This document shows, in pieces, positions 32,273-50,974 of a stretch of DNA of 60,794 nt. Numbering within the stretch: the stretch's first letter is position 1; every line of letters begins with the position of its first letter. A program made the translations under genes and the position numbers. Source of the stretch: Cochliopodium minus (lineage: Eukaryota > Discosea > Himatismenida > Cochliopodiidae); NCBI GenBank assembly GCA_024220525.1, contig JAMYWO010000110.1, forward strand, positions 51,280-112,073, given 5' to 3'. The notes under the pieces were generated by a model. It saw only the letters and a program-made list of their open reading frames with translations, did no database searches and was not told the origin of the DNA.

Positions 32273-35200
32273 ATGCTGAATCTTAAAATAGAGATTTCTG
32301 GGACTAAAAATCAAAAGATTATGAGATTTACAGGAAATATGTCAGTCTCTGAAGGTATATTCTCTAAATTTAAAAATTATTAAATTGATGAATAATTTGA
32401 AAAAGAAATACATGAAACATTCATATTCATTCCTTCCATTCTATTAATTTAATCATTAGAATAGATTAAATTAAAATTCATCATTAATTTTGATGTACCA
32501 TAATTTACCTTGCAAATAAAAAAAAATAGCATTAAAGGAAATTAGAGAAAAAACAGAGCAAGGAGGAATAGATCATGGATTATATCAACCAAAAAATGAA
32601 CTTGCAAATAGAGCAGGAAGATGGTTGGAAAATGATAAAACCTTCTTCTTCTATGGTATAAGAGATGGTGAAGAATTGAAATATGCAAAGAGACATCAAC
32701 AATTAAAAGTTAGATTGGTGGATGGAACTGTTAAAATAGTGATGACTGATGTCAGTCTCACTGTCCGTGAGGTTGTGGATAATATCGGCATTAATCTTCG
32801 TGTGAAAAATACCGAAGAGTATTCTTTGATAGACATGAAAACCAAGAAATGGTTGAATTCCAAAAAGGGATTAAGAGAACAAGGTGTTGATAGCAATGAA
32901 GATATTGTGGTATTTGCAAAAAAATATTTCATAACAGGTAAAAATATTATTTGATTATTTGGATCATTTAAAGTTTGATCTTTAATTTCAAAATAATCTT
33001 TATCTCATAACATGAGAAGACTTTAGAATTTTAAATTAAAAAATATTTTTTATTAAATCATAGATGAAGCTGTTGATAGTTCAGATCCTACTCAATTGCA
33101 TTTGATTTATTCACAATGCTTGAAATCTATTGTGTCCGGAAAATATCCATGCTCATTGGATGATGCATTGATGTTTGCAGCATTTCAAGCACAAATTGAA
33201 GAAGGAAATTATGATATCAAAAAGGAGAAGAACATGAATGTGGAACAATTCTTGCCCAAAAGCCATTTAAAAAAGGGGATAGAGAAATTGATAACCAAAA
33301 ACTGGGATCAGTTGGTTAATAGTGATATTCTCGAGCTCAAATTGAGATATGTGCAATTATGCAGATCACAAGAAACATATGGCGTTGCATTATTTCCCAT
33401 CAAAGAACAGAACAAAAAGGGAAAGTTGGATGATTTCTATTTGGGTCTTACAAAATCGCATATCCTGCATCTTGATCCTGTTACCAAAAAGATCATCGAT
33501 AAAACACCCATCCTTCAATTGAGAAAGTGGACACCTAACCCCAATCAAACCATCACCTTTGATTTTGGAGATAACAAGCTTGAGCCTTGGGTGATCAGAA
33601 CTCCTCAAGCAGACGAAATAGGACAATGGTTCAATGGATACTTCGATATTTTGCTTAGAAGAAGAAATCTTCAAGGAGAAAAAGAGAGAATAGATGACTT
33701 TACTCAATCAGAAACAGAAGATATTGGACCTGTTATTGAACAATCTAATATAGTCCCTACAACTGTACTTACTTTGGGAGGCTTCCAGCCAGAAATGTTT
33801 GGAAGTGATGATCAAATTGATGATGGTCAATTACCTCAACCTAACCAAGGATCTATTGATGGTCCTCTTCCCATTCAAGTTTCAGAAGAAATGGTTCCAA
33901 GAAAAAGAGGAACTGCCTTAACAAAAACAAATGGTAAATTATCACTTCAATTTTTTTAAACATTAATAAAAGTTATTTATAGGTATTCAACAACCTGAAC
34001 TTCCAAAGAAAGGTTTAGTTTTCACTGATATCACTACTACAAATCTAAAGTTGAATAAGCCAAAACAAATAGTTTCGAGAAGTGATCAGTCTGGTAACAA
34101 CATCCTTGCAGTTCCTTCACGTAACTTGCAAATAGTAAAAGTATCTGACGTCTCAAGTGCCCTCGATGCTATCCCAATTTTGTCACTACAATTTGAAGGA
34201 AAGCCAATGCCCAAGACTGAAATCCCGATCAGTTTGATTCGTGCAAGAGCTCTTCTTGAAGAAAAAACAAACTCATTAGCAAAGCGTGTACCTGATTTTT
34301 TTGAAGATCCTTTGGAAACTGATAGCAGAGAAGCAACCAATCAAAAAGTACAAGATCTTATGGGAGACTTAAACAATATTATTAATGCTGCGAGAGCATG
34401 TTCTTCACTGACCGATGACCTGAATCTTCTGGAAGGTATATTTAAAATAGAAAAAAAATTGTGATATAATCAAGCTTATTTCATTTTTAGCTGGAAAAAA
34501 CCTTGTAAAAACTGTTGAAGAAGTTTTGAAATGTAAATTTGAACAAATGAACGACCCAAAAAACGTTCAACTCAAAAATAAAATTAGAAAGGGAGTAAAA
34601 GCATTCAATATCGCAAGCTCTTACTTAATTGGTACATCTAGTAAAACTTTAGTAGATGTTCCCTCTGAAAAACTCGTTCAACAAGCTTCCCAAAAGTTTG
34701 CTACTCTCACTAAACAATTCGCCATTATGTCCGAGGACATCTCCAAACCATCTCAAAAAGCAAAAGTTTTCCAAACTGAATTAGCCGAGATGATCAACTT
34801 ATCAGAACAAATAGAAAATATTACAGATGTTGTTGCCCCACTATCTCATGTACCTGAGAAAAAGAAGCTTTTGACAGATAAATTGGCAGCCACAAAACTT
34901 CAAGGCAAAAAAATTTACGAAATGATCACTGTAGAGAACTTTCCTGAACAAAAAGTTGGTCAAATAAAGGAAGTTTTGGAAGCCTTGGAGTCTTCGTCAG
35001 TCCAAGTAGAACAAGCTCTCGAGTCATCCAGACTAAGAACAGTGGGAAATTCTCAAGATTTGGGAATTTCTTTCAAACACTTACAAGCAAACTGCGAAAA
35101 TATCATGAATGCAGTTGGAAACAAAGCAGAAATTGAAAAAGGAATTCAAAATATTCAACAAGATTTGTTAGATCTTATCACAAACTCCAAGAAAGCAGCA

Positions 35201-38200
35201 AACGATGGTTGTACCGATTTAAATCTTTTGGAAGCTGCTCAAAAACTTACAAAGGAGGTAGAAAAGGTATTGGCTTGTGCAAAGCCCGTTTTGGATAACC
35301 CCAAAAACATGAATGCTTTCAGAAACCTTTTGGGTAGCTGTTTAGGAGTTGTCAAAGTAACCAAAGAGTTTGTCAACGAAGGAAAGTGGGCTCCTTTTGA
35401 TGAAGTTGGAATACAAACAAAAGAAGCTCTTTCTGCTGTTATTGAACTTTCTACAGCAACTGGAGAGATCATTCACAAAGTAATATTTCATTTTTTAAAA
35501 TTATTTTCTATTATTTCTTCTTTTTAAAAAGGTTGGTGAAACACAAAAAGTGCAAGTGGGTAATCTCATCAAGTTTATGAATAAGATGACTCCTCTCCTA
35601 GCAAAACAAGTCACTGAATACTCCAAGAACTCAAGAAATTTCGAGAATCTCGACAAAATAGTCACAAATACTCGCCCTTTCATGAAATTTTTAAAGGAAT
35701 TAAACACTAAAACTCAACAAATCATCCCAGCCATCACAGATACTCCAACCAAAAACAAAGTAAATAAAATCAACGAAGACCTTCTTAATTCTATCAGGAA
35801 ATTAGATTTTGCTTTGTCACTTGTCGAAACTCCTATTGCAAAGGATATCCAAAAAGTCTTTCAAAAATTAGAATTGAGTGAAGCCAAATTTAGTTCCGTC
35901 ATCTTGTCTTCTCAAATTGGAACATTAGTACAAGTGGTACCAAGATCAAAATCCATTGAAATTTTGACTGAAGCAATCAAAAGTAACATTTATATTATAA
36001 ATTAAATAAAATTTAAATTATTTTTTTATATAAAAAAGAGGCCCAACCACTTGTTCTTGATGTTCAAAAGAGTGAACCAAACTCTGTCAGCAAATTGATA
36101 GACAATTTAGCTAGCAGTATTATTCAAGTCCAAAATGCTTCAGAAGTAAACTTTTTTTTTCATTTTGAACATTTTTCTAAACAAAATTTTATCAGTCTTT
36201 TGCATCTGCAACAAATAATCCAGAGAAGCAACGTAGAATTATCACTAAAATTTTATTTTTTAATTTGTTTAATTCTTTTTTTTTTTTTAGAAAATATTTT
36301 GATGATTAGTAAACAATTAATACCTGATTTGTCCGACATTATAAACGCTGCAAAATCAAAGGTAGAAAACAATTCCAAGGAGAATGACTTGAATCTTGTT
36401 GAAGCAGTGAACCATCTTAATGACACTTTAAAGAAATTGCTTTCTACTACCCAAAACGAAAAGTCCAACAATGAATGCGATCCTTACTTAGAGAAGATCC
36501 AAAAGAGTATCCAATTAATTAATCCAACTATCCAAAGCCCATCTAAACCATACAGCATCCAAGAATCCAATGAAATAAAAACAAAGCTAGTCAAATCTAT
36601 TGAACAAATTAACGAACTTTGTGATACTGCAATTTTGTATGCAAAGCAAGATCCCAAGGAACTTGTTAAAGTACTTGCAAATACACTTAAGGCAGTTGCT
36701 GGATTCGTTGATTCTGCTAACAAAACCATCCAAATTATTCCTGAGAAAGGTGGGAAAGAAAAGATGGCAAAAGCATGCCAAACATTCTTGACACAAGTCT
36801 ACGGCGTTTCTTCCAATGCAAAAAACGCAGAAAACGAACCTAAAGCTCAATATGAAATGTTGTTAGCTTATGGCTTGATCGAAAAATCTGGAAAGGAAGT
36901 ACTCAAATGTGTTGAAGGTTTTCTTTTTTTAAAAAAAAAATTTAAAAAACTAAATAAGTTTTTTTGAAATAAGATACATCACCAGGACTTCAAGAAATTG
37001 AACAAGCAAGATTATTGATCGAAAAAATTAAAACGATGAATCCATCTGGCAACAAAAAACAAAACTTGATGTCTTTGTTAAATGCATCAAAGATCTTGCA
37101 AAAATCATTGGATGATCTAGTTTTGTCTGTATCCAGAGAACCAGAAAAATTGGGAAGACTCACAATAGATGTTTCAAAGAATCTCGTGGGCTTGATGCAG
37201 GACGTCAAAGACTTTAATGAAGATCTTAACTTTTTTTCGGGAATAGACAAGATAAAGGATGCTGTCTACGAGATCGAAAAGGCGAAAAGCCCACAAGAGT
37301 GTGTTCCTCATGTCAAAGTAATTGCGCAATGTAGTTCAGACATCCTCAAGACAATGAAAAATTATACTTCTTTGGAAAGAGACAGTAACTTGAGAAGAAG
37401 CACCAATAATACTCAATTAATGGTCACCCCTTTGGTCTCCAGTCTTCTTAACACAACAAAAAATTCTACAAATAAAGGTAAAGAAGGGGTCAAGGACATC
37501 TTTAAGTCTGCACACAAGTTGATCGGTGCTATTGACAATTTGATCCAATCTTCCCCTAAAGCACACAATTTGGTTAAAATTGTAAATAATTCTGGTATAC
37601 TCATTCGTGACAGTATCTCTCTTGTGGGAAATATCGCTCAAGTAGTTAAAAAACCAAATGGTATTTATTTAAATCTTAATCTTTATAAAAGATTCTCATT
37701 ATTTTTTTTTTTTGCCTCAAGACATCATTCTATCCACCAAGATCGCAATATCTACAAGAGCGGTACAAGATGATGTTGATGATTTGGTAGAATCTTTTGT
37801 TGATTTGTCTGTTGGAAGAAAAGAAGTAATATTTTTAAAGATAATCTCTTTTTTAATCTTTTTTTTTTTTTCTCAAGGTTGAAAAAGCAATCAAAGCAGT
37901 CAACAACAGCATCAATGAAATAGATTGTTCGATCATTTCTTGCGAACTTGGGTTATTAGATGTTCCAAACGTAATCAATACATTAGAAGCTCAAGAGAAC
38001 ATGATTTCTGCAAACAAAGATCTCTTTGAAAAATTAAACAGTTTAAACAACGAAGGAAAACTTCTAAACGTATTCCAAATTGGACAAGTTGCAGGATTAA
38101 TCGAATCGTGTGTTGCACAAATTGAAAACTCATCAAAAGGTAAAATATGATTGAGTTTTGAAAGATTAATAAAATTTTAAACTTTTTTAGATTTGGCAGT

Positions 38201-40986
38201 TGTAACCTCGGACGAACAAGTCCAAAAAAAGAATTTTGAAAACTCAAAGTCAGTTTGTCAAAGCGTACAAGATGTTTTGAAGATTTCATTGAGTCTATGT
38301 GACAATCCTAACCAAGAATTGGCGACCAATTTGAATGATTCTATACAAAATTCACAAAAGAAAATCAATGAATTCAACGAAAGTTTGAAGACAACCATTC
38401 AAGGTCTCAAAAAATGTGATGAAGCAATAGAAAAGATCAAAAACTTGTTGAAATCAAAGTCTTTGTCACCTGTCCCATTCTCAAACTCTGGAAACTTTGT
38501 ACAATCACGTGATCAAGTGATCGAAAGTGCGAAAAAGTTTGCTCTCATCGTACTAAAGTTGTTTCACAATGCCAAAAAGAACCCAGAACTCATTTCCGAA
38601 CCTGCCTCTGAGCTTCCAGATCCATTGTCTCAATTGTTGAATGATGTATCTTCCGTCCTTGCTACCATTGAAGACACCCAACTCCAAAAGACAATACTTT
38701 CTTTTTGTGTCAACCTTGTTGAAGGTGCTGTTGGAATCATTCAATCTGCTAGGACTTTTGCCCAAGATCCAAGCAAGCAAAACAAGGTTCTTTTAAACTC
38801 AAGTTATAAAAAAATAACAAAGTCTCTTGGATCGGTTGTATCAAATGTAAATTTTCTTTCTATTTTGAAGATTCAAATTTAATTTTTTCAAAGATCAAAA
38901 ATTCATCAATTGGAGAAAAAGAATGCACAGAAGCTTCAAACGATATTGGGTAAATTTTCTAATATGATTTTTTTATAATACAAACAAACAAATTTTTTTT
39001 TAAAAGTCGTACACAAGGAGATCTTGGTAAAGATTTTGTAGTTTCTCTTTATTTCCTATTTTATTAAAATTACTTTTCAAGAATCTACCCTCATCTTTGC
39101 TGAAACCGGTTCACTTAGCTTTGGCATTGAAAGCGACTTGGCCATGATGAAAGAAGAGTTCGACAGCTTGAAAAACGAAATGAAAAAGGGAATCGTCGGT
39201 TTGGTCAACTCCAAAAACCAAAAGGATATGGGAAGTGCTGCGTTGCTTCTTTCTGCTAACATTTCAGATCTCTCTGTAATTTGTAAAACTATTGCATCTA
39301 TCATTGGTGACTATGAAGAACAGAAAAAAATCTTGACAGAAGGTATATCTTTTATTGATAAATGTTTCAAAATATAAAAAAAAATAAATTTGATTCATCT
39401 TTTGTACATTTTTCATTCTTTTTTTTTTTTCTAGCAAAAAAATTGGCTCTCCGTTCTCAACAACTTGTTTTGTCAGTAAAGAATAAACCCAACAACAACA
39501 AGCCAGAAACCCTCAACTTCCTTAAACAGCTCGAGGAGTTGTCCAAGACTCTCGACTTCTCCTGTCAAAAGTTCCTCACCACTGCAAACCTTATCGCAAG
39601 CTCCATAGAAGACATTGACAACGCAATGAACAGTTTTCCAAAACCTAACTTCCCTATTGAAACAGGAGCAACTGCATCCTCCACAGTGGACTGTTTCAAG
39701 TTGATCGCAAAGTGTATCAGTGACTTGATCTACGCAGTGGAAGTAGACTCTGTCTCATTTCTTACCGAAAATCTCAATGTTATTGTCAAATACAACAATC
39801 TTATGTTATCAACTGCAAAAGGTAACACAGATCAAAAATTTTCTTTTAAATTTTATTAAAATTTTAAAAATTAGGATTTCTCTCCACTATCAAAAACCCC
39901 CAAATCGTTAAGGATAACGAAAAGAGTATTTCTACTATTTGCCAATCCCTCATCCAATTCTTGGAAGTTCTCAAGACTATCACCCAAAAGAAGGAGGACT
40001 GGAAGAACGAAGATAAAATTACCCAATCCAACGAAAACGTTGCTGAGAAAATCTCTGCTGCCATCAAAACTCTTTCCAGTATTCCCGGACAAGAAAAACT
40101 TCAGTTGGAAGAAAATTCTTTGGGACAAAGCGTAATCAGCAACCTGAACTCTACTTTGTCCAAAATTCAACAATCAATATCATCTATGGCACCACCAGTA
40201 CAAGGCAACAACGTCTCCAACATTTTGTCACAAGCCTCCAAAACCATCTTGACTTCCACCGAAAGTCTCGTCAACGCTTCCATCCAAACCCAAAAAGAAT
40301 TACTAGAAAAAGCCAAAAACCCTAGATTCAATGTTTTCGCTAAAGGTAAAATATTGTTAATTATTTACCATTATCTTTATTGATCAATTATAAAATTTTT
40401 AATTCTTATTTTCATGAATCTTTTAAATTTTATTGGTGTTAAAGTTTTTTTTAATTTTCTTTTTGAATAAGATCCTGAATGGGCTCAAAGTTTGATTGAA
40501 GCCTCCCAAAACGTCTCTTCAAGCTCCATCGAGCTTGTCGACTCGCTCAACAAAGTTGCCAACGAAACCAACCCCCAGATCCTCGCAGATCTCATCGACG
40601 ACCTCATCTTCAAAGTGAAGAACGCATCCAACGACTCCCAACGCCTCGTCGTAGTCTCCAAATCTAAAACCGATCCCTCATCTGCTTTTGGTAAAAAACT
40701 AGCAAACTCCGGAAAGTCTGTTCACAATGCTACTACCTCTTTACTTAAAGCTGCCAAAGTTTCTTCTCAAAGGTTCAGAGAAGAAGCTCAGATTCTTTCA
40801 TTGAAACCTTTGCCTTTGAATGAAAGGTTGAAGGATACTGAGTCTGAGGTTTATTTGCAACTCGATATTGCCAAGTTGGAAAAGGAGTTGGAGAAGGAGA
40901 AGTCTCTCCAGAAGTTGATGCTCGAAAGAGCCAAAGAATTTGAGAAATCTGAAAATGTAATTCAAAATCTTAGAAGACAGAATTAA
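32273..40986 (+). CDS. talin
   Basis: A long gene of some 20 exons. The head is clear: F0 from the ATG at 32273 (MLNLKIEISGTKNQKIM), then F1 (RPL-like QLKVRLVDGTVKIVMTDVS), F2 (SGKYPCSLDDALMFAAFQAQ near 33140) and F3 PTB-like (YGVALFPIKEQNKKGKLDD near 33380; KTPILQLRKWTPNPNQTITF near 33510), ending in a linker of acidic and Pro residues. The rod (34000-40400) is a long row of Ala/Ser/Leu/Lys helices that repeat the talin pattern. The last exon (40470-40986) has the region corresponding to the I/LWEQ actin-binding bundle, and a final charged helix (KLEKELEKEKSLQKLMLER) like the talin dimerisation helix. Talin links membrane receptors to actin in cell-substrate adhesion. The I/LWEQ module is diverged. 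Confidence 0.93.
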
Positions 40987-41173: not shown

Positions 41174-44100
41174 TTATCTGAGTTGGTAATATCTTTGTTT
41201 TTTGCCAAAGATATAGTTATCAGATTGAGAATTATCCTCAGGATACTTATCAAAATAAATCTCTTTAGGAAAGAAATCGCCCTCGTAAGACTTCAAGCTC
41301 TCCTGCAACCTGACCAAGGTGAAAGGCAAGTTGGAGTGTGTGATGGTGGACAAAAATGAAGAAACGATGCTCTCTTCATTGACAAAAAGGTTCTTGATGA
41401 AATGAAACATAAAGTTGGCACCCTCAGAATCAGTGATGACCTTTTGTGTAGCGATGATGTAATCAACATTCCTATTTCTAGAAAAAGCACGAACAGCATT
41501 GATCTCACCAGTGGAACAAGCATTGAAAACAACACATTTAATATTGCTGTTGTTCTTGGTGTTGGTGAAACTGTAATCGGAATTGTTAGAGGCAAAGATA
41601 TCAAAGAGACTGGAGTAGGAGACGTATTGGTTGGAATCTCTCTTGTTGTCCAACATATAAAATCCATCAGGAGTTGCATGCCCCGCAAAATAGATCATCC
41701 AGTACTTGTTCTTGATGAGCCTCTCCTTAAACTCTTGCAAGGTGAAACAAAAGTCAATCTCTACAAACTTTCTCACACATTCGTTCTCCGAAAACTCTTT
41801 GATCTTGTTGTACTCAAACTCCTGATACCTCAAATGTTCTCTGCCCATGATGCTAGAGTCAATTCGAGAGTTGCAATTCAAATAGAGGATCTTTCTGTTA
41901 AAAGAGCGAAGTTTCTTTTGTTTTCCCTCCAAATTGGCAATGATGTCATCCCAAGCAAAACTGTTTGGAATCACCAAAGAAGCGTCCCATGGAAAGAAAT
42001 GCTTCTTGGGGTAAACTTTGTTGTAAATCTCTTCCAACCACTTCAAATAATTCTCCTCCCTGTTTTTCCACATCTTCTCAATATCAACCACCTTCGACTT
42101 TTCCTTACTCAACTTTTCTTCTCTGTGGTTGGCACCATTGCTTATCAAAATGCCGCAAATCTCTTCCACTTTTCTCTTGGCTTCTTCGTCGTTGGGTTTG
42201 AAATTTCTGCTAAACTTATAAACGTAGAAGATTGGAGAGTGGCCTTTAAAGTTCAACTGTGTCACTGCTGCACCTCTTTCTATCAACAACTTGACCAAAG
42301 ATACTCTGAATTTAGCACAGGCAATATGAAGAGGGGTATTTCCTTTGAGGAACAAAAAAATAATTTATAATAAAGAAGCTTTAATTATTGAAACTTATCA
42401 AAAAAGAAAAATTCAAACTTTTTTTTGAATATTATTTAATAATAAATTTGATTAATAAATTTATTTTAATTTAACTTACCAGACATAGGATCGATAGTAT
42501 TTACGTTGATATCTTCGTAGTTCAAAAGGATTCTTGCAATTTCGAAGAGATCCCTCATCAAAGCAGTCAACAACAAAGACCTGCCGCTCTCGATGGTGCT
42601 GTTTACACCAAAAGTGTTGATGCTCTGGAAGTACTTGAGGTAGTTGGGATCAAGTTGGTTGCAAGCTTTCAAAAGATTGGTTTCTTCCTTGACTCTTTGA
42701 TTAATGACACTAGAAATGTTTCTGTCTTCAAAGAAGAATCTCTGCACTGATTTCTCGAAATAGTAATCGATGGGCCTGCAGATCATCTTCATAGGAAATC
42801 TCGATCCGTTGTATGCTTTTTCAGTTTCGTAAAACGCCCTTTGGAGAGAACATCTTTCCTTGTTCAGTTTATCGAAAAAGCGTTCCAGAAAGAACTTTTT
42901 GTCCTCTTCGGAAATGGAAATCTCGTTGATGATCACAATTTCGGCACATTCATAAAGTTCTTTCGTTACCTTGGTGTCTAAAAGAAGATTGTTGGGAGAA
43001 GTCTTGTACTCTGATCTAGAACTCTTTTCATAGTTTCTACTTGGTTGGTAAGGTTGTTGAAAGAGGATGCAACATGTCAAAAACCCGACTTTGTCAGTGA
43101 TCAAGTCGAACATCATGCTAAAAGAGAGCTGGGTGGTTTGGTTCGTCTTGTTTTCATCTTCTATCACTATTTGGTTGTTGAGGACACTAAGAGAGGCGAT
43201 GAAGAGCCAAGGATGACAAGATTTGTCAATTCTTTCGAGAATATTCATGCTGTCTCTAAAGGAACAACTATAAGGCGAGGCATTGTAAAAAGAGATTGCT
43301 TTTTTGAATGGCATCTCTGAGAACTTCCTGAACAAAGTGACATACTCTATATTTTTGGAAGAAAACTTTCTCTTTTGAAAGTTGCAAAAGTAAGCAGCTC
43401 TCTTGAGAACTTTCTCTGGTCTGAAATTGAGATACACACCCTTTTGAAGAGAATCAGTCTTCTTCTTCTTGTTCAAGTACTCATTATCAATTGAAGAAAA
43501 ATTGTAAGTTTCTGTGATACTAATTCTGTTGTTAATGCTCAGATATTCCAACTTTTTGCAGGATTCGCGGATCGAATGCTCCTCGAATATCAAAGTGGAC
43601 AACATATCGAAAAAGAATGAGAAGGAGATCTTCATTTCAGTGTGATTGGTGATGATTTCCTCTACGACCCAAGGGGGGAAATACTTTGTTTCTTTCTTTG
43701 AACTGGGAATGTACTTCTTGAAGAAATCGATCGCACAAAGGTAGATGCACCCCAAACTTTGGGTTTGTTCTGGCAAAAGTTCATGACAAAAAGCATCTAA
43801 ACTCTTTTCTTTGTTTCCGAAAGTGAAGTACCCTCTATTGTTGACTTCTGAAGAAATGAAAATGATCCAAGGAACCAACTTGTTCTTTTCTTTCTCCCAT
43901 CTCTCAGCCTTGACGATCTCGAAGGTGATGTAGTTCTTTATTTCAGTGCCTTTGATCTTCTCGATAACTTTAGTGATCCACAAGTTGATCAATTTGGACT
44001 TGGTGGAAACTCCATGTGAATCTATGAAGATAACACTTTTGGTGGGTTTATCTTTTCTTGGCGAGTCTTTCTTCAGAAGATTGTAATCTTCAAATATCAC

Positions 44101-47079
44101 ATCAAAAAAATTTTGGAAAGATTTTTCCAACTCTTTATTCTCTTCCTTGATGATCTCTTTGATCTTCTCCAAATAAATTTTCTGATTTTCAGGGAGAAGA
44201 TTGATCATCTTTGCTACTTTGATCTCGTCGAACTGAAGTATCTCCTTGAAGAACTGAATGTCATCCTTCAGATAAAACTCTTTGAAAGAATGAACAAACA
44301 CTTTTGGCTCAATGATAGACATCTCAAGGAAAATGTTTTTGTATTTTGCGGTGAAAAGTTTTTCGAAAACAACCTTGTTGTTCAAGAACTGATCATCATG
44401 TCTCAAAGCTTTCTCCACCAAATTCTTCAAGATCGATTCTTTAACGTTGATATCAACAAAAAATTTCAAGATGTGCTTGTACTTTGAAGGATTCAAGCAA
44501 TCAAGCAAAGAAGAGACCACACCTATTTCTTTTTGAACAATCTTTTGATCCACGAGTACCTCTTTTTGAACAATCTTTTGATCCATAAGTTCCTCTTTTT
44601 GAATAATCTTTTGATCTACAAGTTCCTCTTTTTGCATCTCATCCTCTTGCTCTTCTTTTTTCTTACTCTCAGTAAGGTTTGGATTACACACGACCACTTT
44701 TTTTAAGAGAAAGGAGTTATTTTCTTTATTTGGCTTGAATCCCAACTTCATGAGCTTTGAGATGTTGTTGATGGATTTTATGTGATCCAAAGGCCTGAAC
44801 TCCTCCTCATCAATTTCATTGATCAAAACTCCATAGGAAACAAGATGATTTATCAATTTGATATCTTCTTTGATACAAGCCAGATGTAAACAGTTTTGTC
44901 CTACCGTGTTCTTGAGATTGAAATTGAGGTGTAATTTCTCAAAGGTATACAAGATATCATAGTTCATCTTCTTGTTCCTGAAGAGTTGAAAAAAGATAGG
45001 CTCACCTTTTAAGAATGAGGAAACACTGGCTCCTTTCTTGATCAACTCCAAAAGCAAATTTCTCTTGCAAAATTTCACTGCTTTTAAGAGTAGCTCGAGC
45101 ATTCTTTGACTTGATTTCTTATAGATTTTTTCAATCAAAAGAGAGATGATCTCCTTATTCTTGAATGTTAAGATTTTTGAATGATGGATGATATCATCTA
45201 CTTGCTGGTTGTTATCTTCGATCACACCAATGAAAAACTTGACAATTTCCAATCTTTCATGTTTGCAAGCTTCATAGAAAGAATCCTCCTCGACAGTGCC
45301 CAATTTGAAAGTCTTGTAGGTGTATCTGATTGCTTCAAGGCTGCTCTTTTGAGTAAGATAGTAAATCAAAGACTTTCCAAAAATATCTTTCTCTGTGGGG
45401 TTCTTGTTGAAAGATTCAAAATCCAAGAATTTAGAAGTATAGGGCTCCCAAGAGAAATAAGATTCAGTGTAGTTCTTTTCTTCTATCAAAAATTCTTTGA
45501 TCTCGTTCCTTTCCTCCATGAAGTCAGTAGAAACAACCGGTTCATACTCGAAACTGGTAGAACCGAACAAAGAGTGAATGTCGATCCCTAATTTATCTTT
45601 GATTCTTGCAATCATCGAACTGATCTTCTTGAGCATGGATCTATCAGATCTTTTTATAGCAAAAGACTTTTTTAACTCTAAAAGTTTCCTCACTATTCTC
45701 TTGTCGCTGTAAGTAGAGACTTTGAGGCAATGATCAATCACCGATTCATCTTGCTTCAGATCAAACAAATTAAAGAGCCTGTAATTCGAATCTCTACAGG
45801 CATCAATGAGTATTTGGCAACCAAAGTGTTCCAAATTCTTGATGATTTGCTGAAGTTCTTCCTTGTTCTCTTTGTGTCTGATCTCGTTCAAAAACAAGCA
45901 GACTTCATTTTTTCTTTCAAATATCTCCTTGGTGAACTGTTTTTTAAAGAGAGAGTTGAAGACCTCAAATAGTTTTTTGGGGTCTCCTCTAAGACGGTGG
46001 CACAAAAACAGGTCTACATTCGAAAAAGAGTGTTTCTCTTTGGAGAGCGTTTCTAGTGAATTAAACACCTCATAAGAATAGTAATAATCTAGGACATCCT
46101 CGTGAACAAACGAGTAGTTTTGACCCTTCAACTCCAATACGCCCAAATTTACGAGATGTTGTGCTATTTGCTCTGCAGAAAACTTGACTTTCCAGTGTTG
46201 AACGATTTCCTCAATCTCGTTGGCGAGGATGTTGTTCGTCTTTCCATTCTTGTACATTTTGGAGGAAATCTCTTTGAGCAACCTCCTTGAATACTTGTTC
46301 AACTCAAATTTGGCAGGATCTCCAAAGATGATCTTGAGGATTTTCTTGTACATCTCTCCCATCGTCATCTCTTCATTCGTCTCCAACATCTTGCACATCT
46401 GTGAGAGGTATAACGGGTTTTTGGCTAATACTGAGATATCCGGGTATTGGGATAAGAACTTATATAATTTTTGAGATAGATAAGAAAGATCTTTGAAGTA
46501 ATTGAAAATGAACTTTTCGATGTTTCTCAATCCGATCAGTTTCAGTCTTTTATGCAAAGAAGAAATTTGGGGTATAAGCGTTGAAGTAAAGATGAGAAGA
46601 TTTTCAATCTCTTTGTTGTTGATCTTTTCTATGATATCCTGAGCCTTCTCATGATTAAGTTTGTCAAAATCATCTATTGTAAACAGCACTTTATCTTTCG
46701 AAATCTCTTGAAAATTCATTTCCAAGCTATTATCAATCTCACTCGAATTATATTTCTTTTCAACATATTTGATTATATCAGTTTCCTCACTGTCAATGTA
46801 CTCATTTCCAACAGGGAAGACAATATCATATTCACCCTTCCAAATATTTCCGTTATTGTATGAATTTATGATCGAATTACAAAGTGTCGTCTTCCCAGAT
46901 CCATGCATTCCATTTATAATCAAAATATTCTGAGAAGGAAAATCATCTATCCTTATTTCTTTCTCCACATCCTCCAATTCTCTTACATCAAAATTATTCG
47001 TATCTATTCCATCTAATGATATCATTTTCAAAATTTTCTCATTAATAAAAAGATCTTCTTTCTTATTTTTCCCCATCAT
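41174..47079 (-). CDS. NLR-like protein: NACHT ATPase, ankyrin repeats, CHAT caspase-like protease
   Basis: Two exons (47079-42480 and 42342-41174) join in phase to give 1,922 residues. Residues 50-350 are a NACHT-type ATPase: P-loop GMHGSGKTT (57-65), Walker B VLFTIDDFDK (131-140), then LAKNPLYLSQMCKML, and YSFVHEDVLDYYYSYEVF as the late winged-helix signature. Ankyrin-like repeats occupy about 570-790. Near 840-880 is a perfect tandem 11-residue repeat. Residues of about 1020-1160 look like a CHAT fold that lost its catalytic pair (IIFISSEVNNRGYFTFG, LGCIYLCAIDFF). More ankyrin repeats follow (residues 1500-1570; GNTPLHIACAKF). The C-terminal CHAT domain has intact His (YFAGHATPDG, H1755) and Cys (FNACSTGE, C1809). 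The layout of sensor, ATPase and protease is that of immune or cell-death receptors. No function is shown. Confidence 0.9.
44527..44640. repeat. 33-base tandem repeat in coding sequence
   Basis: About three and a half copies of a 33-base unit encode KEELMDQKIVQ-type 11-residue repeats within the NLR-like gene. The copies differ at a few third positions only, so the array is young or kept uniform. The 11-residue period suits a coiled-coil spacer. Confidence 0.9.
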
Positions 47080-47272
47080 TCCTTAAAATTTATTATTATT
47101 TATCTCAAAAAATGAGAATCTATTTTTTTTTTTTCAGATGATTTTTTCAAATAAAAACCAAAAATTTTCAAAATACTATTGCCCAGCGATGAAATAACAA
47201 TTTCATGAAATTTAATTCTAAAGGCTATAAAAAAAAAAAATCAGTATTTAATTATTCCTTTTCATCAAAAAA

Positions 47273-48700
47273 TTAATTGATGCTTGTGTAAACTTCGCAT
47301 TCTTCTAAATGAGATTGTAATTGAATGGTAGAATCACATGGGAAATCGCAATATGGGCATATAATCAGTTTCATGGAACCAATGAGAGTGGCACGTGACA
47401 TCGAATTCCTCAAATTTCTTTCTTCCACCTCCTTCAAATTTTCCTCTTCTTCCTTTTTCTTCCTAATTTCCATTACCTTTGGTTTTGACAATCCTTTATT
47501 TGAAGAACACAATTAGATTGGAGAAATAATTTCGAATTAATTTTTTACCATGAGCAGCTGTTTAATGTGACATCGAATCATAACAAATCAAAATTAAATT
47601 ATCCTAAAATTTAAAATTTTTTCTTACATGCCCAATGATTCTCCATCTTCATTTGGGGAATAATTGCACCACAAATTTCACAAGTCTTCGACAAAGAAGA
47701 ACATTTGTTCTCGTGTTCGTTCTTGGATTTGAAGACAATATGGAGATTACACCTAGGATTTGAATATAAAGAAAAAATTAGTTTTTAATGTTATGATATT
47801 CTTTTTATTCTCAAATTCTATAAACTAAATTTTTATCCATTTTTTTTTTTATTGTATAAAATTAAATAAAAATATTTTACCATTTGCAAGGTACTTTTCT
47901 GAGAACACAATCAAACTTTTGATGAACTATCAGATCTTCTAATTGGTATTCTTGCTCACATTTGCACTTCATGTCTGTGTGATAAATGTCTTTGTGTTTT
48001 TCTAGCTCGTCAAATGGCATGCCGGGAAAGTTCTCGCATAGATCGCAATGGAAATGTTCATTCTGTTATAAATATAAGAAATTAAATGAATTATTTCATG
48101 AAAATAATTAATTTTTATTATTTATTTTTTTAATATTTATGAAAAATTTAATGTTATGAAATTTTATTTTTTTACTTTTTCGGTGACAAGTTTGCCTGAA
48201 AAAATATTAAATTAATGTTATAAAAAAAGAGATTTAAGAATTTTTACACTTAGGACAATGCCAATGATCATCTTTGAATTGTAACTTTAAAATAAAAAAT
48301 TATTAGTTGAGATTTAGTAGATATTTAAAAAAAAAAACAGAAACATCAAGTAAGGCCGGTTTAATTTACCTTCAAAATGATTCCGCAATCGCTACAACGC
48401 CAACTGTTTCTAGAACAAAAAACTTCGTGTCTGCTGAAAGAAAATTCAGGGACCCAATGTCTGCAAGTAGGACCTACATTAAGCAAAAAAAAAATGAAAA
48501 AAGAAAAAAGAAAAAAAAAAATACATTTGAGATTGTTTGGCTTCTCTTCCTCCTCTTCTTCTTTCTCTTCCTTTTCGGTAGGTTTGACCATGATGACTTC
48601 TGATACGTCCAACAACGAGAAAGTGATCTCAAACTCCGAGGATTTTTTGTAGCCTCTGACACTGACATAGTAAGTCACATCTTAAAAAAAATGAAAAAAT

Positions 48701-48733
<33 letters not shown>

Positions 48734-50974
48734 ATAAAAAAATAAAAAAATAAATAATAAAAATAAAGATACAAATAATAAAATTTTTTATTTGTACCAT
48801 TTCTTCTGTTAGGATCATCTGTTTCGATCAAAATTTCTTCTCCTCCTGTTTTGACTGCACTCCAAGCGTTGTCAACTGGGTCAGGTTTTTTGTTGGAATG
48901 AGAAATGTACAAGTCAGGGTCACCAGTCAATGCAACACAAACCACTTTTATCACCTTGTTTTTAGACTCTTTTGGAACCTTTTTAATTGAAAAAATAAAA
49001 AAATAATAATAATTAAATTAATAAAATAAATTATTTTACAAAAAATTTATAATATTGGTATAAAGATCCTTCGACTGTGCCCTTAATAGAATCTCCATCC
49101 TTCAAACTTTGAGGCTCTTCTTTATGGACAGAAGCCTCCTCAAAGTCTATTTTCAAAGTTTGTCCGATGATATTAACTAAAAAAAAAGTAAAATATAAAA
49201 AATTTAAAAAAAAATTTAAAACTTGAATTTCCCGGCTTTGTGTCTAAGACAGTAAAATCAAAAATAATTCCATTGAAAGTGAGGGTGATGATGTCGTCCA
49301 CAGAAAGGGAGGAATAGTTGTAACCAAACACAGAGGACAAAACTTCTACGGGATCTTCCAACTCGGAAAATTCGGGGTTGTGAGGGCGAAGTTTTACGTA
49401 CCTTGGTAATAAACAAAAAAAATCAAAAAACAATAAAAAATAAAATTAAAAAATTTGTATTTTTTTAAAAATATCTCACTCTCCTGGTGGTATCTGAACT
49501 AAACTGATATTCACCTTTTCTCCATCACTCAACAAAAGTCTGTTCATTATTCCATCAGGGATGTACACGGTGTCTTCAGGAGCGTTGAACTCGAGTACAC
49601 TAGCGATGGTGACTCTTTCTTGGTACTCTGAGTTTTCGATCGAAAAAAAAAAGGGACCCATATTACTATCTTGCATTATCTTCCATTAAAAAAATTGTTT
49701 TATAAAAACAATAAACATCAAATCGTAATTAAATAATTATTTTTTTTTTAAAATGAACACGAAGGAGATTAATAATTAAAAGTAGAAAAATAATATACTT
49801 TGTCTAGAATTTTTGGTGGCAATATAACTTGGTAAAAAAAAAAAATTAATGAAAATTTGTAAATAAATAATAACCAAAATTTTTTATTACTTTTGTTTCC
49901 TTTCTCTAGTGCATCCGAGATATTCTTCGAAATGATGTGAATGGAACCATATGCATTCAAAGTCCAAATATCTCCTTTGTCCTTGTTACCTTCTCTTTTG
50001 ATGGCTCTCACAGCAGTGTTGATGTCATACCTCTTCTGTTGCATTGTGTTCAAGTCTACGAACCTTTGCTCATCTACTTTCACAATTTTGTTATTCTTTG
50101 GATTGTTGTACTCTTCTTCAATCAGCTCACAAACATTAACATTATAAGAATTCCATCCATTGTCTCCCTTCCAAAACCTTCCATATAATTGTTATTTTAC
50201 AAAGTAATCAAGATTAGTAATACAAAATATATTTTCATTCTTTAAAATATATGAATTTTTAATTTCTTTTTTTGAAATTTCACCATTTTATCAATATTTG
50301 TTTCTCTTCTATCATTTGTGGTTCTATTTTTTGGACAATTCTTTGAGCTATACAGAATGGTCAAAATGAAAAATTAAATTGAGATTTATTCTATGAAAAT
50401 AAAAATCAATACGTCTTCTTATGAGAGGCTTTAATAAATTCCTGATTGATAATCTATGACGTGGAGGATTTTCATCATTCATAGTCGGACTATTGTTAAT
50501 AATTTCGTTATTGTTGGCAACATTGTTGTTATTCTCGATGTTTGGAATGTTATTGTGATCTATTTTGATTGATTGCATCATGGACACCGATAATGATACA
50601 TTTCCCTCTTTGATCGAATCTTCTATGGCTCCCAAGAAAAATTCCTTTGATTTCATCAGATCTAAACCCTCATGATTGGGATCAATATGGAGCAATACTT
50701 TTAATAATACATTAAATTTTAAGATTCAATACATAATATATCCTTTTATAACCAAATTTGTTGAGTTATAAAATTAAATAATCATATTACTTTCTTTGGC
50801 AACATTGATATTATATTGCAAACCCAAATTATAGCATAGACTCTTCAAAAATTTGATTTCATCTCCTTGTGGTATCTTATCATTTCCGTTGGAAAATTTG
50901 TTGAATAATTCGTGGAAATCTTTTGAAGTGATCCTCTTCTCTGATGAATAATATGTGAATAGTTTATTTCCCAT
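47273..50974 (-). CDS. WWE-UFD1-PPC-zinc-finger protein (ubiquitin/p97 pathway)
   Basis: About 15 exons from the ATG at 50974. The N-terminus MGNKLFTYYSS fits N-myristoylation, and an EF-hand-like helical segment follows. A WWE domain is assembled across an intron (ILIKWFWKGDNGWNSYNV, ELIEEEYNN, RFVDLNTMQQKRYDINTAV; near 50290-49980); WWE domains bind poly-ADP-ribose or ubiquitin-ligase partners. Then the UFD1 double-psi barrel follows: IILPPKILDK, VLEFNAPEDTVYIPDGIM, YVKLRPHNPEFSEL and DTKPG. After it come a PPC-like beta-sandwich (VVCVALTGDPDLYISHSN, YYVSVRGYKK) and TRAF-type zinc fingers (CPTCRHWVPEFSFSRHEVFC, WRCSDC, HCPKC, CDLC, CKCEQEY, CEICG, ICPYCDFPC). UFD1-PPC-zinc-finger order matches plant PRLI-interacting factor K. 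The WWE addition appears new. A link to p97/Cdc48 substrate handling is inferred. Confidence 0.88.

Follow-up and report, generated by a model that had tools for sequence, protein, structure and literature searches.

One predicted chain of 1,922 residues, encoded in the genome of Cochliopodium minus, was found to join a NACHT domain, ankyrin repeats and a C-terminal CHAT-like protease domain. With a probability of roughly 0.55, we read it as a one-chain protist receptor of the STAND/NLR type that would combine sensor, switch and protease, and in which the C-terminal CHAT-like domain would be the executioner, activated by crowding. This reading is supported by the kinship of the gene with an expanded NACHT gene family in the same genome, most members of which carry an N-terminal caspase-like domain. 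Receptors of the NLR type are amply documented in animals, plants, fungi and bacteria; to our knowledge they are little described in other unicellular eukaryotes. The caspase-NACHT(-ankyrin) family is probably of more interest than the single gene from which the analysis started.

The window, i.e. the whole stretch of 60,794 nucleotides that was analysed, corresponds to positions 51280-112073 of contig C110, and the genome searched was that of the window itself (44.65 Mb, 598 contigs). The features of the gene and of its paralogue on contig C111 were as follows.

41174..47079, minus strand: whole gene, two exons, product of 1,922 residues (splice and translation)
42480..47079, minus strand: exon 1, residues 1-1533 and one base of codon 1534 (splice and translation)
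46567..46923, minus strand: NACHT domain, residues 53-171, with Walker A at 57-64 and Walker B at 133-140 (Pfam PF05729, E 2.7e-8)
44779..44934, minus strand: ankyrin repeats, best stretch, residues 716-767 (Pfam Ank_2, E 5.9e-10)
44528..44634, minus strand: 11-residue repeat, 3.2 copies (33 bp, 91% matches), within the coding sequence (Tandem Repeats Finder)
43531..44070, minus strand: P1, suspected degenerate CHAT-like domain 1, residues 1004-1183 (by eye)
42811..43332, minus strand: P2, suspected degenerate CHAT-like domain 2, residues 1250-1423 (by eye)
42150..42618, minus strand: ankyrin repeats that flank the exon junction and are split by the intron, about residues 1488-1600 (in exon 2, Pfam Ank 1.3e-6; alignment with the C111 paralogue; limits by eye)
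42343..42479, minus strand: intron, 137 bp, GT...AG, AT-rich (splice and translation)
41174..42342, minus strand: exon 2, with the remaining ankyrin repeats, the CHAT-like domain and the stop codon (splice and translation)
41330..41935, minus strand: CHAT-like protease domain, residues 1670-1871, with boundaries set for the purpose of alignment (Pfam CHAT E 5.5e-4; PDB 8tl0 E 0.021)
41678..41680, minus strand: presumed catalytic His1755, in FAGHAT (8tl0 alignment)
41516..41518, minus strand: presumed catalytic Cys1809, in NACSTG (8tl0 alignment)
Contig C111, 126844-134391: paralogue comprising a caspase domain, a P-loop region, ankyrin repeats and a CHAT-like domain (L006, L008, L070, L071)

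A preliminary description of this DNA had given the extent of the gene and the length of its product exactly, as the spliced translation of the minus strand confirmed, and had placed the residues His1755 and Cys1809 where they were found; the P-loop and Walker B motifs that it quoted lie at 57-64 (GMHGSGKT) and 133-140 (FTIDDFDK). The frame of exon 1 opens at 47082, immediately 5' of the start codon, and since it remains open for 1,538 codons at a GC content of about 35%, an origin by chance is excluded. The 11-residue tandem repeat is perhaps a fast-changing linker. Antisense to exon 2, a 322-residue open frame on the plus strand (41402-42370) matched no Pfam family over its cut-off and is probably a shadow frame.

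The NACHT domain exceeded the Pfam cut-off (34.3 bits versus 26.7, E 2.7e-8), so that the proposal of a NACHT/STAND-type ATPase held against a profile search. Walker A was intact (GMHGSGKT) and Walker B acidic (FTIDDFDK). The latter reads DDFDK in the window gene and DGxDE in 12 of the 23 other rows of the NACHT alignment; likewise, the sensor motif is TST here and ends in RP in 12 of those 23 rows. These altered motifs leave room for a receptor that would bind ATP and hydrolyse it poorly. Ankyrin families were over their Pfam cut-offs in both exons, the repeats being located C-terminal to the NACHT domain. Comparison with known defence proteins by PADLOC returned only weak matches, to mad8 at the NACHT end (E 1.9e-5) and to PDC-M72A over ankyrin stretches (2.9e-4 and 1.9e-4), and the chains of NLRP9 and NLRP5 matched weakly as well (E 0.011 and 0.59). 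Prediction by AlphaFold2 without an alignment gave a pLDDT of 32.4 for 494 residues of exon 1 and of 35.5 for 388 residues of exon 2, values too low to inform on the fold.

The assignment of the C-terminal domain to the CHAT proteases is likely, although formally under threshold. Pfam CHAT (PF12770, cut-off 24) scored 18.8 bits against exon 2 (E 0.0012) and 19.9 bits against the 279-residue CHAT part (E 5.5e-4), for which it was the sole Pfam family reported at E values up to 1. Among the four PDB sequences found at E values up to 10, the first was 8tl0, a 'CHAT domain-containing protein' (E 0.021), and its alignment passes through His1755 and Cys1809, which are paired with its own His and Cys. 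A CHAT profile from Streptomyces gave -0.2 bits for the domain, a score reached by 1 of 200 shuffles; two of the five rows of this profile (L072 and L074) are the same gene, and one fetched match (L077) was omitted by a motif filter. The chain of NACHT, ankyrin repeats and CHAT protease announced in the preliminary description was therefore supported in all its parts, with the reservation that CHAT stays below the Pfam threshold and is backed by a best PDB match that is a CHAT protein. In the genome-wide Pfam CHAT search the window gene was not among the matches. The four matches obtained all lay on C49 and C312, none of them in a NACHT locus; they belong to two further CHAT genes (C312:22151-26136 and C49:69142-72524) in which NACHT was undetected and near which TPR-like frames were noted by eye.

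Only about 50 residues precede the NACHT domain, and an effector at the N-terminus, as NLRs typically have, appears to be missing. A caspase profile built from the family described below recovered no caspase-like frame among the 1,311 window frames of at least 25 residues (best E 0.29), a search that very short or very divergent exons could escape. The immediate upstream neighbour, encoded on the same strand, carries UFD1 N-terminal subdomains (window positions 47276-49685, minus strand; Pfam E 1.5e-12 and 2.2e-13) and continues as frames judged zinc-finger-like by eye, the last of them ending near 47276, about 200 bp from the start codon of the receptor gene. The lack of a caspase-like frame and the presence of this UFD1/zinc-finger gene suggest that the N-terminal caspase is probably absent and not overlooked. 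Elsewhere in the window, a talin-like multi-exon gene occupies positions from about 33057 to 40986 on the plus strand (upstream limit by eye), with talin domains at 38181-38882, an I/LWEQ domain at 40471-40986 and a PDB match to talin-1 (2.9e-6); its frames 34451-35527 and 36017-36967 matched no family.

Searching the genome with the NACHT profile yielded at least 35 matches, at least 25 of them over the cut-off. With L049 and L052 counted as the one gene on C296 that they represent, these correspond to 24 distinct NACHT loci over the cut-off, including the window gene (L047). A caspase-like domain was present in or beside the NACHT frame in 19 of the 24 loci, as judged from the fetched flanks of about 1.5 kb, the two weakest of those counted being L045 (1.4e-4) and L051 (5.5e-12). 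Within the flanks of L043, L050, L053, L055 and the window gene, no caspase-like domain was found. In many loci Peptidase_C14 was recognised by Pfam itself, within or directly upstream of the NACHT frame; the family caspase profile, built from 10 loci already over the Pfam C14 cut-off, revealed further ones. Outside the 24 loci, a caspase-like domain was also detected in the weaker NACHT loci L056 and L057 and in the C111 paralogue. Over the whole genome the C14 profile gave 25 matches, 24 of which exceeded the cut-off, and 15 of these 24 fall in NACHT loci or in C111 when contigs and positions are compared. Pfam scans of 19 NACHT frames revealed ankyrin repeats in 11 of them (8 of 9 and 3 of 10), a lower bound, as several frames end at a locus edge or continue in another frame; 17 of the scanned frames are caspase loci, and all 11 ankyrin-bearing frames are among those 17. 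Locus L050 displays WD40 and pentapeptide repeats in place of ankyrin. Family contigs include C250, C13, C24, C108, C46, C86, C80, C300, C126 and C258, together with C118, C129, C105, C296, C461 and others (all within L031-L057).

The NACHT domain of the window gene can be aligned with those of the family, and the NACHT end of exon 1 matched C86, C108, C458 and C50 at E values from 2.7e-12 to 3.0e-6. In a NACHT tree of 21 rows both the window gene and the C111 paralogue were unplaced, each on a long branch; the tree omits L056, L058 and L059 (removed), L050, L051, L054 and L055 (no clean P-loop match), as well as L049/L052 and L060. An alignment of 22 caspase domains (19 loci, L056, L057 and C111), in which L048 and L057 resemble each other over the portions displayed and the fit of L045 is poor, showed both catalytic His and Cys in 14 domains. 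The remaining 8, C111 among them, have lost one or both residues. The family thus appears to contain potentially active proteases alongside inactive ones; within it, the window gene would be a member that has no caspase and whose CHAT pair is intact.

Apart from the C111 paralogue, no relative was found that shares the C-terminal half of the window gene. Its P-loop region had AAA_22 as best match (4.5e-4, below the Pfam cut-off) and is absent from the NACHT match list. The catalytic residues of both its proteases are lost: the caspase retains His and has Ala in the Cys column, and, in pairwise alignments, the CHAT-like domain has Ser aligned with His1755 and Asp with Cys1809. A reciprocal exchange, with a live caspase and a dead CHAT in C111 and the opposite in the window gene, was therefore discarded, the caspase Cys of C111 being lost as well. 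When the CHAT fragment of the window gene was the sole query against its own genome it matched nothing beyond itself, so the CHAT-like domain of C111 is known solely from the longer alignment. The loss of both CHAT catalytic residues in C111 indicates that the C-terminal half, as far as its sequences tell, is not uniformly selected for protease activity. Upstream of the paralogue, a frame appeared SAM-like by eye and had no Pfam match over the cut-off.

In animal inflammasome NLRs, NACHT is the switch and a caspase the final effector. For the one-chain receptor favoured here, the following series of events can be proposed. The ankyrin repeats would sense a ligand, the NACHT domain would switch by nucleotide exchange and oligomerise, and the resulting proximity would activate the C-terminal CHAT domain, which would take the place of the caspase that the window gene is without and would cut a cellular substrate, leading to defence or cell death. 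Dead-protease relatives, C111 among them, may take part in mixed oligomers as sensors, decoys or scaffolds. A self-contained immune or cell-death switch, as put forward in the preliminary description, is thus plausible. The gasdermin substrate suggested there was not recovered, the whole genome giving a single PF04598 match below the cut-off (E 0.216). This search was made in six frames, exon by exon, and divergent or intron-rich genes may escape it; either another substrate is to be assumed or a divergent gasdermin was missed.

Another possible explanation, unlikely in our view and yet deserving serious attention, is that the window gene belongs to the family as a divergent member, perhaps a decaying or a regulatory one, which retains the chain and would assist relatives with active caspases by serving as sensor, decoy or scaffold, and whose CHAT domain would bind and not cut. 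Its long branch, its altered Walker B and sensor motifs and the N-terminal caspase that was not found are consistent with such a role, as are the lost catalytic residues in 8 of the 22 family caspase domains and the fate of C111, which lacks its caspase Cys and both CHAT residues. However, the reading of 1,922 codons is unbroken, and both His1755 and Cys1809 persist in a CHAT-like motif context, which is unexpected for a dead domain.

Two stretches ahead of the C-terminal domain, P1 and P2, are suspected to be degenerate CHAT-like domains, in which no catalytic pair was seen by eye. The idea deserves attention by analogy with Csx29, in which a pseudo-caspase CHAT1 precedes an active CHAT2 (PMC10028731, in the passages cited here). 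Comparison with the C-terminal CHAT domain by hhalign gave E 0.035 over 28 columns for P1 and E 0.37 for P2, the latter no better than an ankyrin control (0.38). Local alignment to the same domain gave z values of 1.60 for P1 (68 of 1000 shuffles as high) and 1.55 for P2 (77 of 1000), and the two stretches aligned with each other at z 2.17. The strongest result was obtained with the C111 stretch at the place of P2, which reached z 4.32 against the window CHAT domain (0 of 1000 shuffles) and z 2.32 against the CHAT-like domain of C111 itself; in a tile control an unrelated tile (501-700) reached z 3.33. Window and C111 stretches are unlikely to be counterparts, since their alignments gave z -0.63 (P1) and z 0.62 (P2). 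Scores as high were found, for P1 and P2 respectively, in 22 and 43 of 200 shuffles with the Streptomyces-only CHAT profile, in 11 and 4 of 200 when the window CHAT domain was added to it, and in 25 and 31 of 200 with a two-row profile of the window and C111 CHAT domains. The C111 stretches did no better with these profiles (P1: no score, 102 or 179 of 200; P2: 53, 58 or 77 of 200).

These suspected stretches bear on a second alternative, namely a separase-like or housekeeping protease with repeats and a CHAT domain, for which NACHT would be an ATPase switch devoid of any immune role. The two suspected degenerate domains upstream of an active one would fit it, as would the example of Csx29, a separase-like protein in which a pseudo-caspase is combined with an active caspase (PMC10028731, in the same passages). 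Such a function seems quite improbable: the degenerate domains are unproven, and so large a family, composed of caspase, NACHT and ankyrin parts, points to receptors. A wider scenario that builds on the receptor reading is put forward tentatively, and we regard it as doubtful when taken as a whole. According to it, this lineage evolved one-chain inflammasomes, i.e. some two dozen receptors of the caspase-NACHT(-ankyrin) type, among which live and dead proteases would coexist as in sensor/executor networks, and one branch shifted the executing role to a separase-like array of three CHAT domains at the C-terminus, two of them dead and one live. If true, this array would give the same switch a second protease output, independent of the first.

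That two adjacent genes (NACHT-ankyrin and ankyrin-CHAT) were falsely joined by a predicted intron is very improbable: the junction was inferred from sequence alone, but the GT...AG splice signals keep the frame, and the 815-residue frame of the C111 paralogue, which aligned at 23% over 505 residues to the product of the spliced window gene (one-against-one blastp, 1e-37), crosses the position of the intron, which is absent there, in a single uninterrupted frame, with residues matched on either side of the exon junction (42480/42342). The concern that the exons might be separate genes was addressed with this paralogue in place of transcripts, and both exons very probably form one gene.

A family in which switch, sensor and caspase-type protease share one chain would offer a simple setting in which to study how NLRs control caspases. 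With its live and dead proteases, and with one branch in which the protease differs in both type and position, it would also bear on how often the coupling of NLRs to caspases evolved.

The suggestion that the gene might belong to an undescribed system could not be maintained, as CHAT-NLRs are known in fungi (PMC10197012) and caspase-NACHT fusions in bacteria (PMC3501461), at least in the passages cited; the window gene is a variant of NLR/CHAT proteins already in print. Nor does its layout quite correspond to that of animal and fungal NLRs, to which it had been likened: in those receptors the effector is described as N-terminal (PMC12881547; PMC9815663, passages cited), whereas here the protease is C-terminal. 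Among the titles and abstract openings listed from the open-licence PMC literature no description of a protist caspase-NACHT NLR family was encountered, which is weak evidence of absence. No relatives were confirmed in the collections of prokaryote and virus sequences (31 and 4 pattern stretches, respectively). According to the parts of the reports cited, NACHT-ankyrin combinations arose at least twice in eukaryotes (PMC3499355), and NACHT-LRR proteins, with neither Death nor CARD domains, were seen in choanoflagellates (PMC6040629).

The comparisons that follow are likewise limited to the passages cited. Fungal NLRs and NLR-like proteins with a CHAT protease have been described, some of them clustered with gasdermins (PMC10197012; PMC12881547; PMC9815663). 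Like the window gene, they unite a NOD-type ATPase and CHAT in one chain, and ankyrin, TPR or WD40 repeats occur in that group. In contrast, their protease is N-terminal where its position is given and a gasdermin gene is often near, whereas the protease of the window gene follows the ankyrin repeats at the C-terminus and a gasdermin was not found. Prokaryotic metacaspase-NACHT proteins, the metacaspase-NACHT-WD40 proteins of bacteria among them (PMC3501461), resemble most relatives of the window gene in the fusion of a caspase-like protease to NACHT and repeats; they differ from the window gene in having WD40, pentapeptide or HEAT-like repeats and a C14 metacaspase, where it has ankyrin repeats and CHAT. 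One Trichodesmium protein, with NACHT, nine HEAT-like repeats and then a metacaspase (PMC3501461), follows the same order as the window gene and provides a precedent for a C-terminal protease. With Csx29/TPR-CHAT (Craspase) and separase the window gene shares a CHAT-type His-Cys protease behind a repeat scaffold (PMC10028731; PMC9729208). These proteins, however, have no NACHT domain, and Csx29 is activated by an RNA-guided complex; an upstream pseudo-caspase domain is present in Csx29, whereas upstream pseudo-domains are suspected in the window gene. Finally, animal NLRs recruit a separate caspase, directly or via an adaptor (PMC10197012), whereas the window gene carries its putative protease in the same chain.
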